Source: Vibrio zhugei (GTDB lineage Bacteria > Pseudomonadota > Gammaproteobacteria > Enterobacterales > Vibrionaceae). Taken from it: a DNA stretch of 64,000 bases. A model generated the notes under the pieces. That model was not told the origin of the DNA. It worked only from the letters and a program-made list of their open reading frames with translations, and searched no databases. Each line of letters begins with the position of its first letter. The stretch's first letter is position 1. Below, piece after piece: positions 51,806-61,215 of the stretch. A program made the translations under genes and the position numbers. Location: contig NZ_CP033077.1 of assembly GCF_003716875.1 (NCBI RefSeq), positions 310,001 through 374,000 of the forward strand. The letters are read 5' to 3'.

Positions 51806-52618
51806 ATGAAACAGACGTTGTGCGTTGTGTGCCTAACACTCATTCTGTGTCGTTATGGATGGGCTCAACCGATTACCTTTGGTATCGTACCACAACACTC
51901 GGCTGTCGAATTAGCACATAAATGGGCTCCGGTTCTTCATTCACTCTCGTCCATGACATCACTCGACATCCAATTTCGTACAGCGAAAGATGTCCCCACG
52001 TTTGAACAGTATTTATTGTTGGGGGATTATGACATTGCCTTTATGACGCCGTTTCAATATATCAATCTGCCGAAAAAGACGCAGTACGAGGCCTTTGTAA
52101 AAGCCTCAGATTCCCCCATCAATGGACTCATTGTGGTCAATAAAAACAGTGACATTCAGACGCTCACGGATTTAAAATACATGACACTTGCTTTTCGTTC
52201 TTCAGAGCTCTCCGCGTCAACGTGGATCACCCAACAAGAGCTCAAGGCGGCTGGCATCAAGGTTTATTCACGCTACGTATCTTCCGATGAATCCGTCTAT
52301 CTCAATGTCAACAAGGGCTTTTACCCTGCCGGCGCTGGCATACAAGCCACATGGGAATCGTCATCAGAGCAACTCAAAGAAAATTTACGTGTTTTGTGGA
52401 CCAGTCGAGACTACCCAACGTACGTTTTTGCTCATAATACTCGGTTATCAACGGATACCGTGACTGAAATTCAAAAGGCGTTATTGCAATTGTCTGATAC
52501 TGTCGAAGGCCTCAATCAGTTAACCACATTAGGACTGTCGCCTTTGGTCTCCGCACAACATGGGGATTGGGACTCGATTCGTACTCTGTCGTCAACTAAC
52601 TTGCCTGGAATTCAATAA
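51806..52618 (+). CDS. PhnD-like periplasmic binding protein
   Basis: A 270-residue exported protein. The signal peptide ends GWA-QP (about 20). The mature part opens FGIVPQHSAVELAHKWAPVLHSLS, and YDIAFMTPFQYI (about 75-87) is the phosphonate-binding PhnD signature; NGLIVVNKNSDIQTLTDLKYMTLAFRSSELSAS follows. No permease or ATPase genes are linked. Instead a membrane histidine kinase gene starts 5 bp downstream, so it is probably the sensory ligand-binding subunit of a two-component system rather than a transporter part. Confidence 0.85.
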   Translation: MKQTLCVVCLTLILCRYGWAQPITFGIVPQHSAVELAHKWAPVLHSLSSMTSLDIQFRTAKDVPTFEQYLLLGDYDIAFMTPFQYINLPKKTQYEAFVKASDSPINGLIVVNKNSDIQTLTDLKYMTLAFRSSELSASTWITQQELKAAGIKVYSRYVSSDESVYLNVNKGFYPAGAGIQATWESSSEQLKENLRVLWTSRDYPTYVFAHNTRLSTDTVTEIQKALLQLSDTVEGLNQLTTLGLSPLVSAQHGDWDSIRTLSSTNLPGIQ

Positions 52619-52623
52619 TATTA

Positions 52624-54252
52624 ATGGCTATGAAATCATTGTCTTTACGTTTTAAAACCATTGCAGGTATCGCACTTATCGAGATCGTCACGCTCTCGGT
52701 GTTGGTCACGATAACCATATGCTATTTATATCAAACCAGTTATGACGCAATGGAACAACGAGTCTCATCAACCTTGGATTTATACACTCGAGCCATTACC
52801 AGCCCAGTCTTAAGTTCAGATTTGGCCACTTTGAATCATTACACCGAAACCTTGATGAAAAGCAAGGGCGTGAAGTACATCGCGGTCCTCAATACCTCAG
52901 GCATGATCCTAGCCGAAGATGGCGACTATCCGAGTCGCTTTACACCAGGTATGTTGGAAGCGAACGCGGAAGCGGTCACCGATTCTGTTTATGATGTTTC
53001 GCGTCGTATTGAAGAATCCGGGGTCACTTTTGGTACGATTTGGATCGGCTTTAGCATGAAAGAGATCAACCAAACCATCGCAAATGCGGCAAGATGGGCG
53101 GTGATCATTGTGGCATTGGATATTATCTTTGTCGCTATTTTCTCTTATATTTTGGGGTATTTCCTCACTAAACGATTGGCAAAACTCAGTGCTGCTACAA
53201 CAAAAATCGCGCAAGGCGATTTGGATGTGGATATCCCTCAAGAAGGCAATGATGAAGTCTCTAAGTTAACACTTGCCTTTAATCAGATGATCGCGCAACT
53301 GAAAAACACCACCGAGCAAAATGCGCATTATCAAGCACAGTTACAAGAGATGAATAATTCACTTGAAGAAAAAGTGAAAGCAAGAACATCGCAATTTCTC
53401 ACTGTGAATCAACAGCTTTCCGATGCCAATGAAGAGCTGATCACCACGCAACACCAGCTGATAGAAAGCGAAAAAATGGCCTCTCTGGGGATCATGGCAT
53501 CTGGATTTGCTCATGAAATTAATAACCCTGCAGGCGTGATCAGTGGCAATTTAACCGTTTGTCAAAGTTACATAGAATTGTATAAAGAACGTTTTAAGCG
53601 CCAGCAAGATTTGATTGATCAGTATATCGATAACAAACACACCCAGTCGCTAAACCAATGGTTAAAATTAAACGACTTCAGCTTTATTGATGAGGATATC
53701 CTCGACTCTCTCACCGATTCAGTCAAATGTATTGACCGTATTCATAGTATCGTCACCGCATTGCAGTACTACTCGAATGAACGCCATAATAATCGCGAGG
53801 GCATTGAGCCCATTGATATCTTCCCCAGCCTAGACCGAGCCATTGATCATACCTACCATGACGAGTCTATTGAACTCGTGTTATCACCAGAGCTGCACGT
53901 CTTGCCGCGTATCCTCGGCATTCCTAATGAGCTGGACCGCCTCCTTAAAGAAATTCTACAAAATGCCTTTCAAGCCTGCCAACAGGTTGTAGAGGGTCAG
54001 AAGCGGGTTATTATTTCCAGCCAAGTGCTCGATAAACACATTCTACTCTCGATCAAAGATACCGGGCCGGGCCTCTCAGAGCTCAATATGAAGCATTTAT
54101 TTGACCCATTCTATACCACACTTCCCGTCGGTGAAGGCATGGGATTGGGATTAACGTACGCGTACGACATCATCAAACATTTACGGGGTAATATAGAAAT
54201 TAAGAATTGGACGTCGGGAGCCGAGGTGACTCTGACATTCCCGACGAGTTAA
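52624..54252 (+). CDS. Membrane sensor histidine kinase (HAMP, HisKA-like)
   Basis: A 542-residue kinase. TM1 is at about 12-33, a periplasmic sensor loop about 34-155, TM2 about 158-182, HAMP about 183-238 (LTKRLAKLSAATTKIAQGDLDVDIPQEGNDEVSKL), a coiled coil about 235-285, then the dimerisation domain with GIMASGFAHEINNPAGVISGNL (phospho-His about 301). The ATPase has an N box (LLKEILQNAFQACQ), DTGPGLSE and GEGMGLGLTYAYDII. It is cotranscribed with the PhnD-like protein. No regulator follows on its strand; candidates lie in the convergent operon. Confidence 0.9.
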   Translation: MAMKSLSLRFKTIAGIALIEIVTLSVLVTITICYLYQTSYDAMEQRVSSTLDLYTRAITSPVLSSDLATLNHYTETLMKSKGVKYIAVLNTSGMILAEDGDYPSRFTPGMLEANAEAVTDSVYDVSRRIEESGVTFGTIWIGFSMKEINQTIANAARWAVIIVALDIIFVAIFSYILGYFLTKRLAKLSAATTKIAQGDLDVDIPQEGNDEVSKLTLAFNQMIAQLKNTTEQNAHYQAQLQEMNNSLEEKVKARTSQFLTVNQQLSDANEELITTQHQLIESEKMASLGIMASGFAHEINNPAGVISGNLTVCQSYIELYKERFKRQQDLIDQYIDNKHTQSLNQWLKLNDFSFIDEDILDSLTDSVKCIDRIHSIVTALQYYSNERHNNREGIEPIDIFPSLDRAIDHTYHDESIELVLSPELHVLPRILGIPNELDRLLKEILQNAFQACQQVVEGQKRVIISSQVLDKHILLSIKDTGPGLSELNMKHLFDPFYTTLPVGEGMGLGLTYAYDIIKHLRGNIEIKNWTSGAEVTLTFPTS

Positions 54253-54255
54253 ATA

Positions 54256-54276
54256 TGAATAGGCAATGCCTATTCA
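54256..54276. terminator. Palindrome between convergent operons
   Basis: TGAATAGGCA (54256-54265), one base, then TGCCTATTCA (54267-54276). It is a compact hairpin lacking a T tract, placed exactly between the kinase stop and the end of the opposite operon. Confidence 0.45.
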
Positions 54277-54283
54277 CGGACGG

Positions 54284-55639
54284 TTAGATGAAAATGGCGA
54301 GAGGATACTGAGTGTCTTTTTCGATGCGTTTTAGCTTTTCAAGCAAGGCTTCACTGATTTCTTGCCCCGCTGTCAACATTAGGCTGCCATTGGATAAATA
54401 CACATCACGCTTAACCACAGTGCCCACTTTCACTTCATTGACACTGACACACCGTTCCAAACCATCAGCCTGATCGACATCACTCATCACAGCTAAGAAC
54501 GCTTTGACCACATTCGGATCATACAGCACACCACTGTAGTCGGTTAAAAAACGTCGAGCACTGGTCGCGGTCATGCGATTGCGGTTATTTTCGGCGGCAA
54601 CAAAATAGTCGTAATTTTTAAGGACACGAATAATACGCGAACCAATCGGAATATCATCCCCTTTCAAATGAGACGGACCACCGGTCCCATTGTAGTTTTC
54701 ATCCTGATGTTTAATGACCGACATCAACGGGGCAAAACGCTTGATGCGTCCTACAATTTCCGCGCCTAACACCGAGTTCGCATCGGGCGTACTCGGAATA
54801 CCAGCATTGCGTTTCATCAACGTCGGTTTGCTATCTTTTCTAGCGGCCAAACCAATCTCGTGCAACAGCGCACAAAGATACACTTGGTTTATCTCCGCAT
54901 CCGATAAACCCAATTTCTTGGCGACGACTTTCGATTGTTCTGCCACCCGTTCGCTGTGGTTAGCTGGCATACCACTACTGTATTCAATGATCGCTTTTAA
55001 CGTCGCTAAAATATCATTAAACGTTTGATTTCTTGCTTTGAGCACTTTTTCTAGTGAACTGTTTGCTTCTTTTAACGCTTGGGTGCGTTGCAAGACTTTT
55101 TCTTCCAAACGTTGATTGAAGCTTTTAAGCTCGACGTTTTTTTCTTCGAGTGTGACCAGCAATTGATCATGCTGTTTGCGTAATACATAAAATTCTGCCG
55201 CTTTCGCAACGGTCAGCTTTAAGGATTGATTATCCCAAGGCTTTGATAAATATGTATGTATTCCCCCTTCATTAACCGCACGAATGGTGGATTCCATATC
55301 ACTGTACCCGGTCAATAAAATGCGCACTGAGCCAGGGCAAATTTCTTTCGCGATGGATAAAAACTTCGCTCCATCCATTTGGGGCATGCGCATATCAGAA
55401 ATAATGATAGCGACAGGGTGATCACTTAAATACTCGAGCGCATCTTCACCTTCATTAAACGAGACAACGTCATAATCAAGCCGCAACACTCGTGTCAACG
55501 TTTTAACAATGTCGGCTTCATCATCGAGAAGCAGAAGGGATAGCCTTTGCGAGTCAGTATCTGGTGTTTCGACCGCCTCACTCACCTCTTCAACGGGCGT
55601 ATCAGGTGAGTCAGGCGTGATTTTTGAGTCAGTCATCAT
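54284..55639 (-). CDS. Response regulator with degenerate HD-GYP domain
   Basis: A 451-residue protein. An acidic N-tail is followed by a receiver (about 32-150, LLLLDDEADIV, phospho-Asp in ISDMRMPQMDG, LLTGYSD, YLSKPWD), a coiled coil (about 160-205), and an HD-GYP-like domain (about 210-390) in which HD reads LLHEIG, the HHExxDGxGYP block reads HQDENYNGTGGP, and the Asp in the RIIxVxD stretch is lost. Phosphodiesterase activity is therefore doubtful; it may bind c-di-GMP or partners instead. A C-terminal beta domain (VGTVVKRDVYLSNGSLML) resembles the tail of similar regulators. ATGA overlaps the preceding gene's stop. Confidence 0.88.
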   Translation of the reverse strand: MMTDSKITPDSPDTPVEEVSEAVETPDTDSQRLSLLLLDDEADIVKTLTRVLRLDYDVVSFNEGEDALEYLSDHPVAIIISDMRMPQMDGAKFLSIAKEICPGSVRILLTGYSDMESTIRAVNEGGIHTYLSKPWDNQSLKLTVAKAAEFYVLRKQHDQLLVTLEEKNVELKSFNQRLEEKVLQRTQALKEANSSLEKVLKARNQTFNDILATLKAIIEYSSGMPANHSERVAEQSKVVAKKLGLSDAEINQVYLCALLHEIGLAARKDSKPTLMKRNAGIPSTPDANSVLGAEIVGRIKRFAPLMSVIKHQDENYNGTGGPSHLKGDDIPIGSRIIRVLKNYDYFVAAENNRNRMTATSARRFLTDYSGVLYDPNVVKAFLAVMSDVDQADGLERCVSVNEVKVGTVVKRDVYLSNGSLMLTAGQEISEALLEKLKRIEKDTQYPLAIFI

Positions 55640-57276
55640 TTACTCTCCTGCGGCTGATAATCCTTAACATATTTGATAAACGCCTCCTTTGATAAGGGTG
55701 GACTGAACAAATAACCTTGAACATGCTGACAGCCATGTTCGCGCAATATTTCTAGCTGGGTCTCATCTTCGACACATTCTGCAATGACGCCCATATTCAA
55801 TGAATTGGCACTTTCGACAATGGAATGAAAAATGGCATTGTCAGCGGCTGATTGGCCCAGCGCACGGATAAATCGGCCGTCGACTTTCAACACATCAAAG
55901 GGCAGCTCAGAAATCATTTCGAACCCAGAAAATCCCGTTCCGAAATCATCGATCGAGAGCCGGACACCAAATTCTGAAAGCCTCTTCATCTCGGCTCGAG
56001 TTTTCTCATAACTCTGGATCAATTGAGTATCGGTCATTTCTATATCTAGACGTAATAAAGCCTTAGCATTCTCACCGGCGAAACGTTCTAAGAAACGATG
56101 AATCAGTCCCTTTTCTACTTGGCTAGAGACAACATTAATAGCGCAACGAATGTCAGTTCGGCCTTTTTCTTCGAGCCAATTTATCATCGCGATGCTTTGC
56201 TGAAAAATGGATAACGTCATGTCATCAATAAAGTTATATTTGGTCAACAAAGGAATGAATGTCATCGGAGCTTCGTAGCTGCCGAATTCATTCTGACGAC
56301 GCACTAACGCCTCACACCCATCAATGGTATTGGTTTCTACATTAATTTGTGGTTGAAAGAAGGCGACAAAGGGTTGAGCGTCCTCATTGAGCAACAAATG
56401 CACTAAATGCTTTAATTCGGACTGTGTTTCGTGTTCTTGTCCTTGCCAAAAATACGGCGAGTCACCAATCTTATCTAAATAACACTTGCGCTCATTCACG
56501 GCCTCAGAACTGAGTGAGTCCCAGCTTTTAAATTCGCTGATATACAAATTAAACCCATAAGGCGAGTCTGGCTTAGCAAAATTTTGCCAAGCAAGATGAA
56601 TCTGACTGAGCACATCGGTAAGCAAGTCGACACTTTCAGGCGCACAATCTAACACGATGAAGAATTTGTCCTCATCTCGATAGATATCCAAAGCGATATG
56701 TTGCTTGAGTTGCGCTGCCACTTCTTCGATAACCGTATTCACGGCGGTGACGCCATAGGTGGTATTGAGCGTTGCGGTATTACGCAAATCTATCGTCAAC
56801 AGTAACATGGGAAGCGAGTGTTGAGCGTCAGAGAGTTTTTGTAATTGTTCATTGAGTCGATTGGGTAACTGACACTGAGTCAAGATATCTTGATGCGCAA
56901 AATCGGCTTGGCTCTCTAGGGCGTGATGAATTTCTTTAATCAGTTCGACCGAGTCCCAAGGCTTGGTGATGAACTTATGCAGAGCGCCCACATTCAAGGC
57001 TCTACTGACATCACTGAGTTCAGCTTGACCAGACAACATAATCGTCGACAACTGAGGATTAATCGCTTTGAGCTTCATCAATAGCTCAACACCGTTCATT
57101 TTCGGCATGCGAAAATCAGAAATAACGAGGCTAATGCGATGCTGCTTGACGATCTCAATCGCTTCATCGACATGCGTTGTGCTATAAATTTCAGCAAACT
57201 CCATACGCAAGGTGCGAATCAGTGATTTGAGAATCGGTAGCTCATCATCCACTAATAAAATTTTTTCGTAATACAT
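55636..57276 (-). CDS. Response regulator with degenerate GGDEF and EAL domains
   Basis: A 546-residue protein from ATG 57276 (GGGGA about 9 nt upstream). The receiver is about 5-120 (ILLVDDELPIL, ISDFRMPKMNG, LSGQAE, ITKPWD). A GGDEF-like domain follows (about 130-290) whose signature is RDEDKF, so it cannot be a normal cyclase. The EAL domain (about 305-540) keeps GCEALVR, INVVSSQ, LDIEMTD, SIDDFGTGFSG, LKVDGRFI, AECVED and QGYLFSPP, so c-di-GMP hydrolysis is likely. The output of the operon is thus probably lowered c-di-GMP on phosphorylation. Confidence 0.9.
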   Translation of the reverse strand: MYYEKILLVDDELPILKSLIRTLRMEFAEIYSTTHVDEAIEIVKQHRISLVISDFRMPKMNGVELLMKLKAINPQLSTIMLSGQAELSDVSRALNVGALHKFITKPWDSVELIKEIHHALESQADFAHQDILTQCQLPNRLNEQLQKLSDAQHSLPMLLLTIDLRNTATLNTTYGVTAVNTVIEEVAAQLKQHIALDIYRDEDKFFIVLDCAPESVDLLTDVLSQIHLAWQNFAKPDSPYGFNLYISEFKSWDSLSSEAVNERKCYLDKIGDSPYFWQGQEHETQSELKHLVHLLLNEDAQPFVAFFQPQINVETNTIDGCEALVRRQNEFGSYEAPMTFIPLLTKYNFIDDMTLSIFQQSIAMINWLEEKGRTDIRCAINVVSSQVEKGLIHRFLERFAGENAKALLRLDIEMTDTQLIQSYEKTRAEMKRLSEFGVRLSIDDFGTGFSGFEMISELPFDVLKVDGRFIRALGQSAADNAIFHSIVESANSLNMGVIAECVEDETQLEILREHGCQHVQGYLFSPPLSKEAFIKYVKDYQPQESK

Positions 57277-57289
57277 CAGCTGATCCCCA

Positions 57290-58597
57290 CTAGTCTTGGG
57301 AAGATTCAAGGATACTATTCGGGCCTTCCGTTGGTAGTAGAATAGTAAAGCATGTGCCTTCGCCTTCTTTGCTGGTTACGTCAATCGTTCCTTTATGGGC
57401 ATTAATAATGCCATAAGAAACGGACAAACCGAGTCCTGTGCCTGAACCGACTGGTTTGGTGGTGAAAAACGGTTCAAAAATACGATTTAACTTTTCTTCC
57501 GGTATACCACACCCTGTATCACAAATGGCAATGCTCACCCAATCATCGCCACTTCGTTTCATCTCAACAATGATCTTGCCATCCCCATCAATCGCTTGGC
57601 TGGCATTGACTAAAATATTAAGAAACACTTGATTAAGCTGCATTGGCTGGCATAACACTAAAGGAAAATCGTCATCGTATTTGCGTTCAACTTCGATGCT
57701 GTACTTAATTTCGTTATTGATGATCTTCAGGGTCGATTCCATACCCTGAACCAAATTGGAATGATTCCACTCGGCGTTATCAAGATGGGAGAAATCCTTA
57801 AGATTTTTCACAATCGCAACAACGCGATCCGCGCCTTCTAGTGACTCTTTAATCAAATCTTCAACATCTTCTAAGATAAAATCGAGCTGGTACTTCGCCT
57901 TCGTTTTCTGAATGTCTTGAACAACTTGTTCGCTCACGTTCGCTTGCAGTAATTGTTCAACATCCGTGAAGTAATTGACGATCTTACTAAAGTAGTCTTG
58001 TAAGGTTTGAACGTTGGAGGTAATGAAACCAATGGGATTATTAATTTCATGGGCGATCCCAGCCGATAGTTGTCCAATCGACGCTAATTTTTCCGACTGG
58101 AGTAATTGAACTTGGGTATCTTTCAGTTGTTTTAACGTGTCATTCAGGTTTTGATTGTTGTCTTCTAACAGCTCAGACATCGACTTCAACGCTTTTTGCT
58201 GTGAAGCCTGCGTCGTGACATCATAAACACACACGCACACGTGCTCGAGTGAGCCATCGTCATTGTGAATAGGGATGACTTCAATATCTTGATACATGTC
58301 ATCCTCTTTACCAGAAACTGGCCGAGAACTCTTAAAAGGGAGAAAATGTGGCTGTTGCTCCCAAGAAGAGAAACTCGAGGATTCAATGACAAACGCCGTA
58401 TCAATTTTCCGTTTTAAAAACGTCGCTGAGTCAGGAAAAAGCTCAAGAATATTTTGTCCGACAAAATTCTCACAGTTAACCTTTGCGCGTGTTTGAAAAT
58501 ATTCATTGGCTGTCATGATGCGATAATCACGCCGCACAATACACAAAGCAAAGGATAACTGATTCAATAAATCAGATAACATGAGTTTGGCTTTCAT
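57290..58597 (-). CDS. PAS sensor histidine kinase, cytoplasmic
   Basis: A 435-residue kinase with no membrane segment. A PAS-like sensor (about 5-130, [22 protein letters not shown]) is followed by a coiled coil (about 135-165) and [25 protein letters not shown] with the phospho-His (about 181). The ATPase has [16 protein letters not shown] (N box), [32 protein letters not shown] (G1, F, G2). Its H box and N box belong to the same subfamily as the membrane kinase in the opposite operon, so both may feed the same regulators. Soluble location suggests sensing of an internal signal. Confidence 0.92.
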
Positions 58598-58616
58598 TCG
58601 CCTATCCTTTGAGTCA

Positions 58617-59207
58617 TTATAACAATTCGTCTAACTGAACAAGCACTTGGTCCAGCCCGTTGTCTGCAAATAAAATGATGGTTTTGGTTTGAAATTCGGC
58701 GACTTCAATAATGAAATCCACCTCCATTAAAATCGGTGTCTTCCATTCCGATAAACGATGCTGTTGCTCTGACGGTTTAAAGATTGACGGCGGTTGAATT
58801 TTCAAATTCAAATCAATTTGTTGGCATAGACCCTTTAAACTCGCCCCACTTAATATATTCGATATATCGAGCAAACAGTCATCGATCAGAATATTCGACA
58901 TATTTTCCGCTTGCTGAGAATCAAGCTGATTCATTTCAGCTGCGATGGCACGCCCACCTTTTTTGGACAATAACGTGACAAGTTCCCCAGACATACCGCC
59001 GTAAAAAGACTGTCGTGTAAAATGATAAAGCTCTTCCATCCCTTCAATTTTATCGAGCTCGGCTTTATCCACGAATTTTATGTCGGGAACCGTAAGAGTT
59101 ACATGCAAATTAAGTAAGCGAGCGAGTTTCGCGGCCGCTTGCCCCATAGAAATGTTCAATAGCTCTTTCAATGTGTCGGTGTGATCTGCGCTTAATTCTT
59201 TGCTCAT
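58617..59207 (-). CDS. CheC-type CheY-P phosphatase-like protein
   Basis: A 196-residue protein of the CheC/FliY phosphatase fold. Two pseudo-symmetric active-site helices are visible: LKELLNISMGQAAAKLARLL with VTLTVP (about 12-42), and CLLDISNILSGASLKGLC with LKIQPP (about 111-139). The consensus (D/S)xxxExxN is kept in the first; the Glu of the second is Asp. It would dephosphorylate a receiver, most likely the product of the upstream gene, whose stop overlaps its start (ATGA). No chemotaxis genes or CheD are near. Confidence 0.82.
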   Translation of the reverse strand: MSKELSADHTDTLKELLNISMGQAAAKLARLLNLHVTLTVPDIKFVDKAELDKIEGMEELYHFTRQSFYGGMSGELVTLLSKKGGRAIAAEMNQLDSQQAENMSNILIDDCLLDISNILSGASLKGLCQQIDLNLKIQPPSIFKPSEQQHRLSEWKTPILMEVDFIIEVAEFQTKTIILFADNGLDQVLVQLDELL

Positions 59208-59569
59208 AACAAGCCTACCTCATGTAATACGGAACGGAGTAAGTTCATATCAAGTGGCTTTTGTAAGAACCGAACTGCGCCTAGCTCATTGACGAGACGT
59301 TGCGATTCCGGCTGAATATCAGCACTGATAACAAACACATAATTACGTGCACTTTCTGCTTTTAACGTTTTTAATACTTCAAACCCGTCCATCACTGGCA
59401 TAATCAAGTCCAGAAACATAACATCGGCCTTTCCCGCTCGATAACACTCAACCGCCTCTTCGCCGTTGGTTGCTTCGGTTAACTCGATATCCCAATCTTC
59501 AGGAAGAGCTCTAATGACGGCTTTTCTCGATAACTTAGAATCATCACAAACTGTCACGGCAATGGTCAT
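59204..59569 (-). CDS. Stand-alone CheY-like receiver
   Basis: A 121-residue single receiver domain. The acidic pair is VCDDSKLSRK (about 8-9), the phospho-Asp is in MFLDLIMPVMDGFEVL (about 54), the Thr/Ser switch is VISADI and the Lys is FLQKPLD. There is no output domain, so it works through protein contact, by phosphotransfer, or as a phosphate sink. It sits between an HDOD regulator and the CheC-like phosphatase, to which it is translationally coupled. Confidence 0.9.
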   Translation of the reverse strand: MTIAVTVCDDSKLSRKAVIRALPEDWDIELTEATNGEEAVECYRAGKADVMFLDLIMPVMDGFEVLKTLKAESARNYVFVISADIQPESQRLVNELGAVRFLQKPLDMNLLRSVLHEVGLL

Positions 59570-59579
59570 ACGCTTACCC

Positions 59580-60725
59580 TCATTGGCTACTTAGTTGCAA
59601 TACATTGGTGATAGCGCTTTTATACTCACTAGGAACGCGTGCCAATAATTGTTCCGGAGTTACACCATCTTTATTCATTACAAACTGAATGAAAAAGGCG
59701 ATAGATACACAATTTGTTATTCTATCTTCTTTAAGATTAGTCAAAGAAAAACTGATAGTTAAAATCTTACGCGTAATTTCTTCAGAATACCCCCAAAGCG
59801 TTAATACGTAGGCAGTAATCAGTAAAATGTCGTTGAGCGAACCATCCAAATGACGGCTCTCTAATGGATTGTGATCTGTATCGCATCCTGATTGCGCAAT
59901 GGTTAAAGCCCCGATCGAGACCATCAAAGTCATCATGAATGCCATTTCTTGCTCTTCTCGTGATAAATGCAGCGCATGCGTTAGGCTTTTCGCCTTTTGT
60001 GATGCCTCTAGATACTCATTGACGATCATCTGGTGCTGCTCATCCGTCAAATGACCGCTATGATCGGTATTTAGCATGCATAACGTAATGGCCTCAATCA
60101 TACGGCTGCCAAGCCGGCTGATCGCCACTTCGAGAAACAAGGTTGAGCTGCTAAAACCAAAATACGCAGAGTTCGCTAATTGAATCACCCGTGCCGTGAG
60201 AGAGGGCTCTTGCTTGATAATCTCAGCCAGTTTTTTTAAATCCCCGTCTTCACTTTGCATCAGTGTTTGGACGTCCTTCACCACTTTTGGCATGACGGGG
60301 ATATAAGCACTAATTTTATTCAGTTTATTTAAGCACTCAGGAGAAAATGGCGGGGAATTAAGGCGATAAGCGGCGGCCAATACAGAGGCCAGATCCCCCT
60401 CCGAAAACGGCTTGGGCAACACGAAATGTGAGTAATCATGCAATGCACTGGTCGCATCCTGGTTGGTATTTCCTGTGACTAAACACCTCAGAGCCAAAGG
60501 GAAACGCTGTTTTGCATCAATGAGGAGTGAATCTCCTCGTATTTGCGGCATTAATAAATCGGAGATAATCAATAACGGTTCACAAGCGAGGTTCTCGGCC
60601 CAATGCACTGAATCACTCACGGTCGTAATTGACCACTCTGGTTGAATACGACGAATCATTCGAGCGGTTGCCTTTAACATCAAAGGATCATCATCTATGT
60701 ATAAGACATGTAATCCTATTGCCAT
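59580..60725 (-). CDS. Response regulator with HDOD output domain
   Basis: A 381-residue protein, first gene of the operon. The receiver (about 5-120) has VLYIDDDPLML, LLIISDLLMPQIRGD (phospho-Asp), LVTGNTN and VLPKPF. The HDOD domain (about 135-330) begins IPVMPKVVKDVQTLMQSEDGDLKKLAEIIKQEPSLTARVIQLANSAYFGFSS and AISRLGSRMIEAITLCML, the classical HDOD start. HDOD is a non-hydrolytic HD relative used as a signalling scaffold. ATG at 60725 has GAGAAG just upstream. The gap to the next gene is 10 bp. Confidence 0.9.
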   Translation of the reverse strand: MAIGLHVLYIDDDPLMLKATARMIRRIQPEWSITTVSDSVHWAENLACEPLLIISDLLMPQIRGDSLLIDAKQRFPLALRCLVTGNTNQDATSALHDYSHFVLPKPFSEGDLASVLAAAYRLNSPPFSPECLNKLNKISAYIPVMPKVVKDVQTLMQSEDGDLKKLAEIIKQEPSLTARVIQLANSAYFGFSSSTLFLEVAISRLGSRMIEAITLCMLNTDHSGHLTDEQHQMIVNEYLEASQKAKSLTHALHLSREEQEMAFMMTLMVSIGALTIAQSGCDTDHNPLESRHLDGSLNDILLITAYVLTLWGYSEEITRKILTISFSLTNLKEDRITNCVSIAFFIQFVMNKDGVTPEQLLARVPSEYKSAITNVLQLSSQ

Positions 60726-61215
60726 ACTCTTCTCCCGCACTCTCGCAAAATATTAAGTTGGTGTACGAATCATCGGTATACCTTTGATGAATTATAGTTC
60801 TATACCTTTTCAGCATAGCTCTAAATATTTAATGCTTAATATTAATGGTCATTTAGGTGACTCAGATCGCGCGAGAAGACGATTGGACCGCAATTATGTC
60901 CAGCCTGTCTCACAATTAAGACAAGCAAGATCGCATCGCTATTCTTCATATGAATACAATGACGTACGCAAATGAATAAAAATGTGAAGTAAACCACCGG
61001 ATTTACCTTTGTTTAACATTTGAGACCAAATTTACATTTAAAAAAACGCACTTTTCAGTATGATTCTCTCACTGTTTGCTAGAAACAAAACGTTACATAG
61101 TGAGTTTTTATTTCATATCAGTCGATTAGAGAAATTACAACTGCAGCATAATATCGATACTAACTAACCGTATTTGATGTGTCGTAAACAGTTTTTATAA
61201 ATTTGAGGAGACCAA
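60726..61215. promoter_or_regulatory. Divergent promoter region, signalling operon / agcS
   Basis: 490 bp, AT-rich, promoters for both directions. An open frame at 60784-60975 lacks a ribosome site. No glycine riboswitch features were found before the symporter; the ribosome site GAGGAG lies at 61204-61209. Confidence 0.4.

Follow-up and report, generated by a model that had tools for sequence, protein, structure and literature searches.

A Vibrio zhugei signalling locus looks like a version of the Hno/Nos c-di-GMP switch and carries a likely receiver-phosphatase pair

What drives a bacterial locus in which two histidine kinases, four receiver proteins, a CheC-type protein and a periplasmic binding protein are encoded side by side, and what does it control? 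We asked this of a stretch of Vibrio zhugei DNA of 64,000 nucleotides (the window), where all eight open reading frames between 51806 and 60725 are intact and every domain that an earlier note had assigned to them is backed by Pfam matches. The genes, with the corresponding positions in Vibrio cholerae, are as follows.

51806..52618, + strand: PhnD-type periplasmic binding protein (PF12974; vc1089 position)
52624..54252, + strand: membrane histidine kinase with periplasmic region, HAMP and HEINNP H-box (Pfam, H-box; vc1088 position)
54284..55639, - strand: receiver with degenerate HD-GYP, HnoD/NosR family (NF053512; vc1087 position)
55636..57276, - strand: receiver, degenerate GGDEF and EAL, predicted HnoB-type phosphodiesterase (Pfam, motifs; vc1086 position)
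57290..58597, - strand: cytoplasmic PAS histidine kinase, HEINNP (Pfam, H-box; vc1084 position)
58617..59207, - strand: predicted CheC-type phosphatase with two active-site motifs (Pfam, motifs, AlphaFold2 model; vc1083 position)
59204..59569, - strand: lone receiver, overlapping the CheC gene by 4 bp (ORF list, Pfam; vc1082 position)
59580..60725, - strand: receiver-HDOD protein (ORF list, Pfam; vc1081 position)

The two units converge, with stops at 54252 and 54284 and 31 bp between them. The gaps of 10, -4, 19, 13 and -4 bp that had been given for the second unit were reproduced with ATG starts at 60725 for the receiver-HDOD gene (a GTG is present at 60740) and at 57276 for the receiver-EAL gene (a TTG is present at 57309), and its description as a single operon was borne out as an operon-like unit. 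A scan for promoters and terminators was uninformative: it gave 13 promoter-like sites (shuffled sequence, 21.0) and 11 terminator-like sites (shuffled, 8.4). In a PHROGs search, the only matches of the locus were to receivers of unknown function, and CheC had none.

The earlier note knew of no named system with this set of genes, which proved mostly wrong. The gene order is that of V. cholerae vc1081-vc1089 minus vc1085, and the HD-GYP protein falls into the NosR family. In the literature, VC1086 is called HnoB, vc1080-vc1087 is described as a nitric oxide (NO)-sensing and biofilm operon, and V. cholerae HnoK is reported to transfer to HnoB and HnoD. The Hno network of Shewanella oneidensis and V. 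cholerae, in which HnoX-HnoK and HnoS act on HnoB, HnoC and HnoD, resembles the window in its receiver-EAL protein, its degenerate receiver-HD-GYP protein and its several kinases. However, the window adds a lone receiver, CheC, the HDOD protein and a binding-protein kinase. Searches of the window for H-NOX, an HnoK-type kinase and HnoC gave zero matches, the HnoK query matching the two kinases of the locus only. An Hpt relay in the V. zhugei strain was also considered and was unsupported, as the window contained no Hpt match.

The two output proteins have the Pfam architectures receiver-GGDEF-EAL and receiver-HD_5. Aligned to 4rnh, the former has lost its GGDEF site but retained the EAL and DDFGTG motifs, so that the proposed EAL output would indeed be expected to lower c-di-GMP. 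The latter scored 434.5 bits against NF053512, the curated NosR family (cut-off 400), and in the alignment HE replaces HD and GGP replaces GYP. Given the gene-order match to V. cholerae, the score above the NosR cut-off and the loss of the HD pair, the output proteins are, by sequence, members of the known Hno/Nos network. Against the Hno/Nos-type reading, identity to the Shewanella counterparts is only 30% for receiver-EAL (with the HnoB-position protein) and 35% for receiver-HD-GYP. In 12 of 30 Vibrio loci the HD-GYP protein is kept and the receiver-EAL gene is absent from the locus, so inhibition of HnoB may not be the only role of HnoD. We considered whether the HD-GYP site might be intact in loci that lack the EAL gene and rejected this, as all aligned Vibrio rows, with or without that gene, have HE, HQ or HK in place of HD. 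In a V. cholerae colonisation test, loss of VC1086 (CI, 1.24) and loss of VC1087 (CI, 1.48) acted in the same direction, whereas a simple inhibitor model predicts opposite effects; the in vivo data, from two papers, are not clear-cut.

The kinases share the H-box type that the earlier note had seen, HEINNP in each. The PAS kinase has the domains PAS_4-HisKA-HATPase_c. The membrane kinase, 81% identical to its homologue in the nearest genome compared (G182), has HAMP and HATPase_c, a HisKA match of 17.6 bits that is below the cut-off, and two hydrophobic stretches, at about residues 10-37 and 151-185. An exact pattern search of G182 found HEINNP only twice, in the two kinases of this locus, although it would miss a HELNNP kinase, the form found in Shewanella. 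The residues that follow HEINNP differ between the two kinases, which counts against the Hno/Nos-type reading. VC1084, VC1085 and VCA0719 have been reported as copies of one kinase, and VCA0719 is described as the H-NOX-associated kinase of V. cholerae.

Three other systems share parts with the locus. With NosP-NosK-NosR of Burkholderia (NF053512) it has in common a NosR-family regulator with a degenerate HD-GYP and a HEINN kinase H-box, the form reported there for NosK. Unlike that system, the window has two kinases and a separate EAL regulator, and a search of the window for a FIST-domain NosP gave zero matches. The PhnD-type binding protein adjoins a membrane kinase, as in AioX-AioS arsenite sensing, where Cys106 of AioX is given as the pocket cysteine. 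Arsenite sensing of this type was rejected because the cysteines of the window protein, at positions 6, 9 and 15 only, lie within the likely signal peptide, and the mature protein has none equivalent to Cys106. The binding protein matches PF12974 with 161 bits; its nearest solved relative by sequence is PtxB (5o2j; E, 6.5e-11), and its relationship to PtxB and PhnD is roughly no closer than that between those two families. The CheC protein resembles chemotaxis CheC/CheX phosphatases such as Thermotoga maritima CheC in fold, Pfam families and active-site motifs, but its neighbours are a PAS kinase and c-di-GMP regulators, and CheA and CheD are absent among the genes of the locus.

The CheC protein matches both CheC and CheX in Pfam, and its AlphaFold2 model (pLDDT, 89.3) found T. 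maritima CheC as first match (E, 5.2e-12). The active site of the family has two motifs of acidic residues and Asn followed by Pro. D11, E15, N18 and P41 of site 1 are present in 22/22 aligned proteins, and so are D or E110, D or E114, N117 and P140 of site 2; position 114 is D in the window protein and in 16 of the 22. An ExxN motif is also described in the literature. In 78/78 loci the lone-receiver gene shares 4 bp with the CheC gene, and two related proteins examined are receiver-CheC fusions. CheC is supported as the likely phosphatase of the lone receiver. The lone receiver is only 23 to 26% identical to the three other receivers of the locus, so a different kinase may phosphorylate it.

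Conservation of the gene set beyond close strains, on which the earlier note had staked its reading, extends far, through the Vibrio loci to examples of a receiver-CheC-PAS kinase triad in Shewanella, Rheinheimera and Alteromonas. This triad is the most widely shared core. Among 30 Vibrio loci collected via their CheC, the PAS kinase and receiver-HD-GYP are present in 30, receiver-HDOD and the lone receiver in 29 each (the one receiver-HDOD miss being a contig end in L062, and the one lone-receiver miss a frameshift in the assembly of L002), the membrane kinase in 20, and receiver-EAL and the binding protein in 18 each. The Vibrio gene set is assembled more than chance would give. A scan of genome contigs with CheC alone found zero relatives; an alignment-based scan returned 67 loci, including two Thermoplasmata loci, lacking the receiver and PAS kinase next to CheC, that were excluded from the synteny comparison. 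At the cut-off and uncorrected for kinship, the NosR/HnoD family was found in 27/27 Vibrionaceae genomes with the triad and 0/80 without it, and likewise in 10/12 versus 44/184 genomes of the family of G019; only some candidates per genome were scored (19 and 8 in the respective searches), so a genome without a match may still carry the gene. Eight Vibrio genomes whose loci carry it were missed by the genome search, and two of these scored 468.6 and 466.6 bits directly. In Shewanella (L048) the neighbours of the triad are NosP, HnoD, HnoC and HnoB; in Rheinheimera (L060) they are HnoD and HnoB. In three Vibrio species hnoX-hnoK lies 1.1 to 2.2 kb from the locus, and in Vibrio penaeicida (L003) the genes, including one for an HnoK-like kinase, lie on one strand. 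H-NOX is absent from G182.

The locus appears to be the Vibrio form of a c-di-GMP switch already known and linked to NO sensing in relatives. We give close to an even chance to the fuller reading, drawn from the sequence, of an Hno/Nos-type locus that takes input from two kinases and has a phosphatase arm, for which we take the published logic of HnoK/HnoS, HnoB and HnoD as support. The PAS kinase would autophosphorylate on a cytoplasmic cue, and the membrane kinase on a periplasmic ligand held by the binding protein. Phosphoryl groups from both would pass to the HnoB-type receiver, turning c-di-GMP hydrolysis on, and to the HnoD-type receiver, ending its inhibition of HnoB. One or both of these kinases would also phosphorylate the lone receiver, from which CheC would strip the phosphoryl group; together, receiver and CheC would act as a drain or timer for the signal. 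NO would enter at the same receivers in organisms that have H-NOX/HnoK or NosP kinases. Since G182 has no H-NOX, the inputs in this lineage would be the local kinases, possibly with a FIST/NosP-linked kinase encoded elsewhere.

The lone receiver could instead be an output with a target of its own, such as the flagellar motor, with CheC ending the signal as in chemotaxis and the HnoB/HnoD branch separate. CheC is best known from family annotation as a CheY phosphatase, L059, L061 and L064 have receiver and CheC but lack the PAS kinase, and the Alteromonas triads have no c-di-GMP genes beside them, HnoB and HnoD included, which also speaks against the Hno/Nos-type reading. However, the triad tracks the NosR/HnoD family and in Vibrio belongs to one gene run with HnoB and HnoD, and we know of no target for the lone receiver; we consider this alternative unlikely. 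We think no better of the chances that the binding protein and membrane kinase form a system of their own, which only happens to converge on the operon and signals to another regulator. Among triad-bearing Vibrio loci the kinase is missing from 10/30 and the binding protein from 12/30, a second point against the Hno/Nos-type reading, and VC1088 has been termed an orphan kinase beside vc1080-vc1087 under separate LuxT control. Yet no other receiver gene adjoins the membrane kinase, its H-box class is common to both locus kinases and seen only twice in G182, and in V. penaeicida its gene precedes the others and shares their strand.

Less probable still is that the main input in this lineage comes from a FIST/NosP NO sensor and its kinase, encoded outside the locus, and that the local kinases play a minor part. 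FIST proteins occur in 25/27 locus-bearing genomes, with two in G182, the two genomes without FIST have H-NOX, and in Shewanella NosP and its kinase adjoin the triad; but these counts cover locus-bearing genomes only, and the HEINNP search of G182, which HELNNP would escape, found no further kinase.

Returning to the Hno/Nos-type reading, the lone receiver and CheC are likely an unstudied pair of small signal carrier and eraser, which has accompanied the switch in several bacterial families. We offer more tentatively, as a rather doubtful extension, that they form a dedicated phosphate drain inside the network. A phosphatase of the chemotaxis type, recruited to an ordinary kinase network, would then govern how long and how strongly several kinases can drive one EAL phosphodiesterase, and NO would be only one of several exchangeable inputs.

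New here are the triad core that tracks NosR/HnoD, the invariant overlap together with the fusions, the exclusive HEINNP pair in a genome without H-NOX, and the nearby hnoX-hnoK. The output pair is kept in genomes without H-NOX; thus, NO via H-NOX need not be the main input. The receiver-CheC pair could limit the signal in an Hno-type network. A review (PMC6335343) gives the second Hno kinase as having an unknown signal and poses the integration of two signals as a question. For that question the locus offers candidates in the PAS kinase and the pair of binding protein and membrane kinase, which share one H-box class.

The region 51806-60725 is occupied by eight intact genes, and each domain call was backed by Pfam. 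The forward strand encodes a binding protein and a membrane kinase; the reverse strand encodes a receiver-HDOD protein, a lone receiver, CheC, a PAS kinase, a receiver-GGDEF-EAL protein, and a receiver-HD-GYP protein. The earlier note had observed this locus accurately: the two units converge, 31 bp from stop codon to stop codon, and the gene spacings it gave (10, -4, 19, 13, and -4 bp) are correct when the ATG codons at 60725 and 57276 are taken as starts. Gene content and motifs are established for the locus, as are a predicted fold and conservation. The window comes from a Vibrio, and its CheC is 92% identical to a Vibrio palustris CheC. In the nearest genome examined, G182, we found the same gene order for the entire block, flanked by the same AlsT-like and HAD-like neighbours, with a CheC 92% identical to that of the window. 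Conservation beyond close strains proved wider than sequence alone could reveal. However, the claim that no named system has this gene set is mostly wrong: the outputs fit a network already described, and the V. cholerae operon has been published.

With a score of 434.5 bits, the receiver-HD-GYP protein passes the 400-bit cut-off of the NCBIfam NosR model. It carries HE in place of HD and GGP in place of GYP, and all aligned Vibrio rows have HE, HQ, or HK at the HD position. Alignment to 4rnh shows that GGDEF is lost from the receiver-GGDEF-EAL protein and that its EAL and DDFGTG motifs are retained. We call these proteins HnoD/NosR and HnoB after the nitric oxide (NO)-linked Hno/Nos networks. 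Passages of PMC6335343, PMC8846402, and PMC7108781 describe HnoB as hydrolyzing c-di-GMP once phosphorylated by HnoK, a kinase inhibited by NO-bound H-NOX. They describe HnoD as lacking phosphodiesterase activity and suppressing HnoB until kinase input lifts the suppression, and HnoS as a second kinase, of unknown signal, to the same regulators. They also report as confirmed that V. cholerae HnoK transfers phosphate to response regulators. By gene order, the window block is V. cholerae vc1081-vc1089 minus vc1085; V. cholerae was represented by L121, and the L121 CheC shares 98.5% identity with a V. cholerae protein. An excerpt of PMC4441509 predicts an eight-gene operon, VC1080-VC1087, with EAL residues conserved in VC1086 and HD-GYP catalytic residues missing from VC1087. 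Other excerpts identify VC1086 as HnoB and VCA0719 as the H-NOX-associated kinase (PMC8738867) and treat VC1084, VC1085, and VCA0719 as copies of one kinase (PMC2709254). By position, VC1083 would be CheC and vc1089 the binding protein. VC1083 is not mentioned in any of the ten papers found for VC1080-VC1085.

A scan with 22 CheC proteins as queries yielded 67 loci. The part common to Vibrio, Alteromonas, Rheinheimera, Shewanella, Pseudoalteromonas, and Aeromonas is a triad of lone receiver, CheC, and PAS kinase; the PAS kinase is absent from L059, L061, and L064, where receiver and CheC are present. Wherever the receiver and CheC genes were both recovered whole, they overlap by 4 bp (78 of 78 loci), and two of the more distant matches join them in a single protein (identity to the pair in the window, 42-47% and 28%). 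The pairing of lone receiver with CheC is well supported. Similar fusions appear to be common both in Vibrionaceae and in the family to which genome G019 belongs (L112, L113, and many matches of ~340 residues, most judged by length only). Site 1 of CheC does not vary among the 22 proteins, and the acidic positions of site 2 are Asp or Glu (Asp in the window). The AlphaFold2 model of CheC (pLDDT 89.3, pTM 0.85) best matched Thermotoga maritima CheC (E 5.2e-12, TM 0.74).

The triad is found together with HnoD, HnoB, and a receiver-HDOD gene in Rheinheimera aquimaris (L060), and with receiver-HDOD, HnoD, and a GGDEF-EAL gene with no Pfam receiver in Aeromonas (L063). Next after the triad in Shewanella L048 come a hybrid kinase, a kinase, a protein with the NosP domain (FIST), and a NosR-family regulator (455 bits) on the opposite strand, and past these lie a helix-turn-helix receiver and the beginning of a receiver-EAL gene. 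L057 repeats this order minus the FIST gene, and its receiver-GGDEF-EAL gene reaches the slice end. Clustering placed FIST-type genes at six loci, and Pfam was run on one of these genes. In L026 (11914-13151) a sigma factor (Sigma70 regions 2 and 4) and an RskA-type anti-sigma factor come after the triad, encoded on its strand; clustering counted 13 Alteromonas loci of this kind.

CheC of the locus type (>280 bits; next match, 97 bits) occurs in 27 of 296 sampled Vibrionaceae genomes, always flanked by receiver-HDOD and PAS kinase. The lone receiver is an open reading frame in 26; in V. metoecus it is frameshifted in the assembly (L002, 9638-10001), truly or by sequencing error, and the EAL and membrane-kinase frames are short. 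Among 30 Vibrio loci with wide flanks, where some counted V. metoecus genes are partial, CheC, PAS kinase, and receiver-HD-GYP were present in 30, receiver-HDOD and receiver in 29, membrane kinase in 20, binding protein and receiver-EAL in 18 each, an Hpt-like gene in 15, and a second kinase in 14. The small Hpt gene (vc1080 position, before receiver-HDOD; PF01627 in L002 and L006) and the second kinase (vc1085 position) are present or absent together: 14 loci have both (L001, L002, L004, L006, L058, and L114-L122), 15 neither, and only L007 has the Hpt-like gene alone. The window has neither.

NosR exceeded its cut-off in at least 19 of the 27 CheC-bearing Vibrionaceae genomes; the other eight have a homologous gene in the locus, two of which scored 468.6 and 466.6 bits. 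Among the matches listed, it did so in 0 of 80 genomes without CheC, picked in listing order rather than at random, and two of these gave matches at E 1e-60, of which the better scored 391 bits. For the G019 family (CheC >170 bits), the figures were at least 10 of 12 genomes with CheC versus at least 44 of 184 without (Fisher p 5e-5). The counts for both families are uncorrected for kinship and for the limit on candidates scored per genome. NosR is thus common there without the triad, and in 8 of 10 genomes NosR and CheC lie at least 20 kb apart or on separate contigs.

Of the 27 genomes with the locus, 10 have an intact H-NOX; in G012 (L081), where the locus is kept, the sole match is partial with two internal stop codons. 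The genome search found no H-NOX in G182, and neither H-NOX, NosP, nor Hpt matched within the 64-kb window. FIST proteins occur in 25 of the 27. In V. coralliilyticus, V. europaeus, and V. ostreicida (L128-L130), hnoX-hnoK lies 1.1-2.2 kb past the binding-protein gene. In V. penaeicida L003 one strand carries all the genes, an HnoK-like kinase as well as the binding protein and membrane kinase among them, and there is no receiver-EAL gene.

The earlier note assigned both kinases one H-box type, and both do carry HEINNP. In G182 the motif is confined to these two among 28 HATPase_c places (not all kinases), and a DNA pattern for it matched exactly the same two places. Across six genomes the pattern matched 20 places, 14 in locus kinases or HnoK and six in two other kinase groups; a reversed-pattern control gave 0 matches. 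Residues past HEINNP differ between the membrane and PAS kinases. A quick tree of 61 kinases, with several long branches and only hybrid and EnvZ-like kinases as outgroup, placed PAS, Vibrio HnoK, FIST-adjacent, and membrane kinases near one another with moderate support (SH-aLRT 86-93) and put two Alteromonas PAS kinases and non-Vibrio HnoK elsewhere. It is at most plausible from these sequences that the two locus kinases share receivers. Part of PMC12570481 describes a NosP-system kinase with the same HEINN motif as likely both kinase and phosphatase, so by analogy the locus kinases may dephosphorylate their own regulators.

Most likely, the two kinases would activate the EAL receiver and lift the HD-GYP brake, which together would lower c-di-GMP, and the lone receiver and CheC would drain phosphate. 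Every phosphotransfer step is inferred, as are the ligand, the drain, and what the HDOD protein does. Several observations count against this reading. HnoD is retained without a receiver-EAL gene in 12 of the 30 Vibrio loci (L003, L006-L008, L013, L058, L062, L114-L116, L118, and L125), so the degenerate receiver-HD-GYP protein may have a partner other than HnoB. In Alteromonas loci neither HnoB nor HnoD adjoins the triad. The lone receiver is only 23-26% identical to the other receivers of the locus. Finally, loss of VC1086 and loss of VC1087 had effects in the same direction in one published test (excerpt of PMC4441509). The output half belongs to the Hno/Nos network and, like the V. cholerae operon, was already known; novelty remains in the receiver-CheC arm, in the input through the binding-protein kinase, and in the persistence of the locus in genomes without H-NOX.
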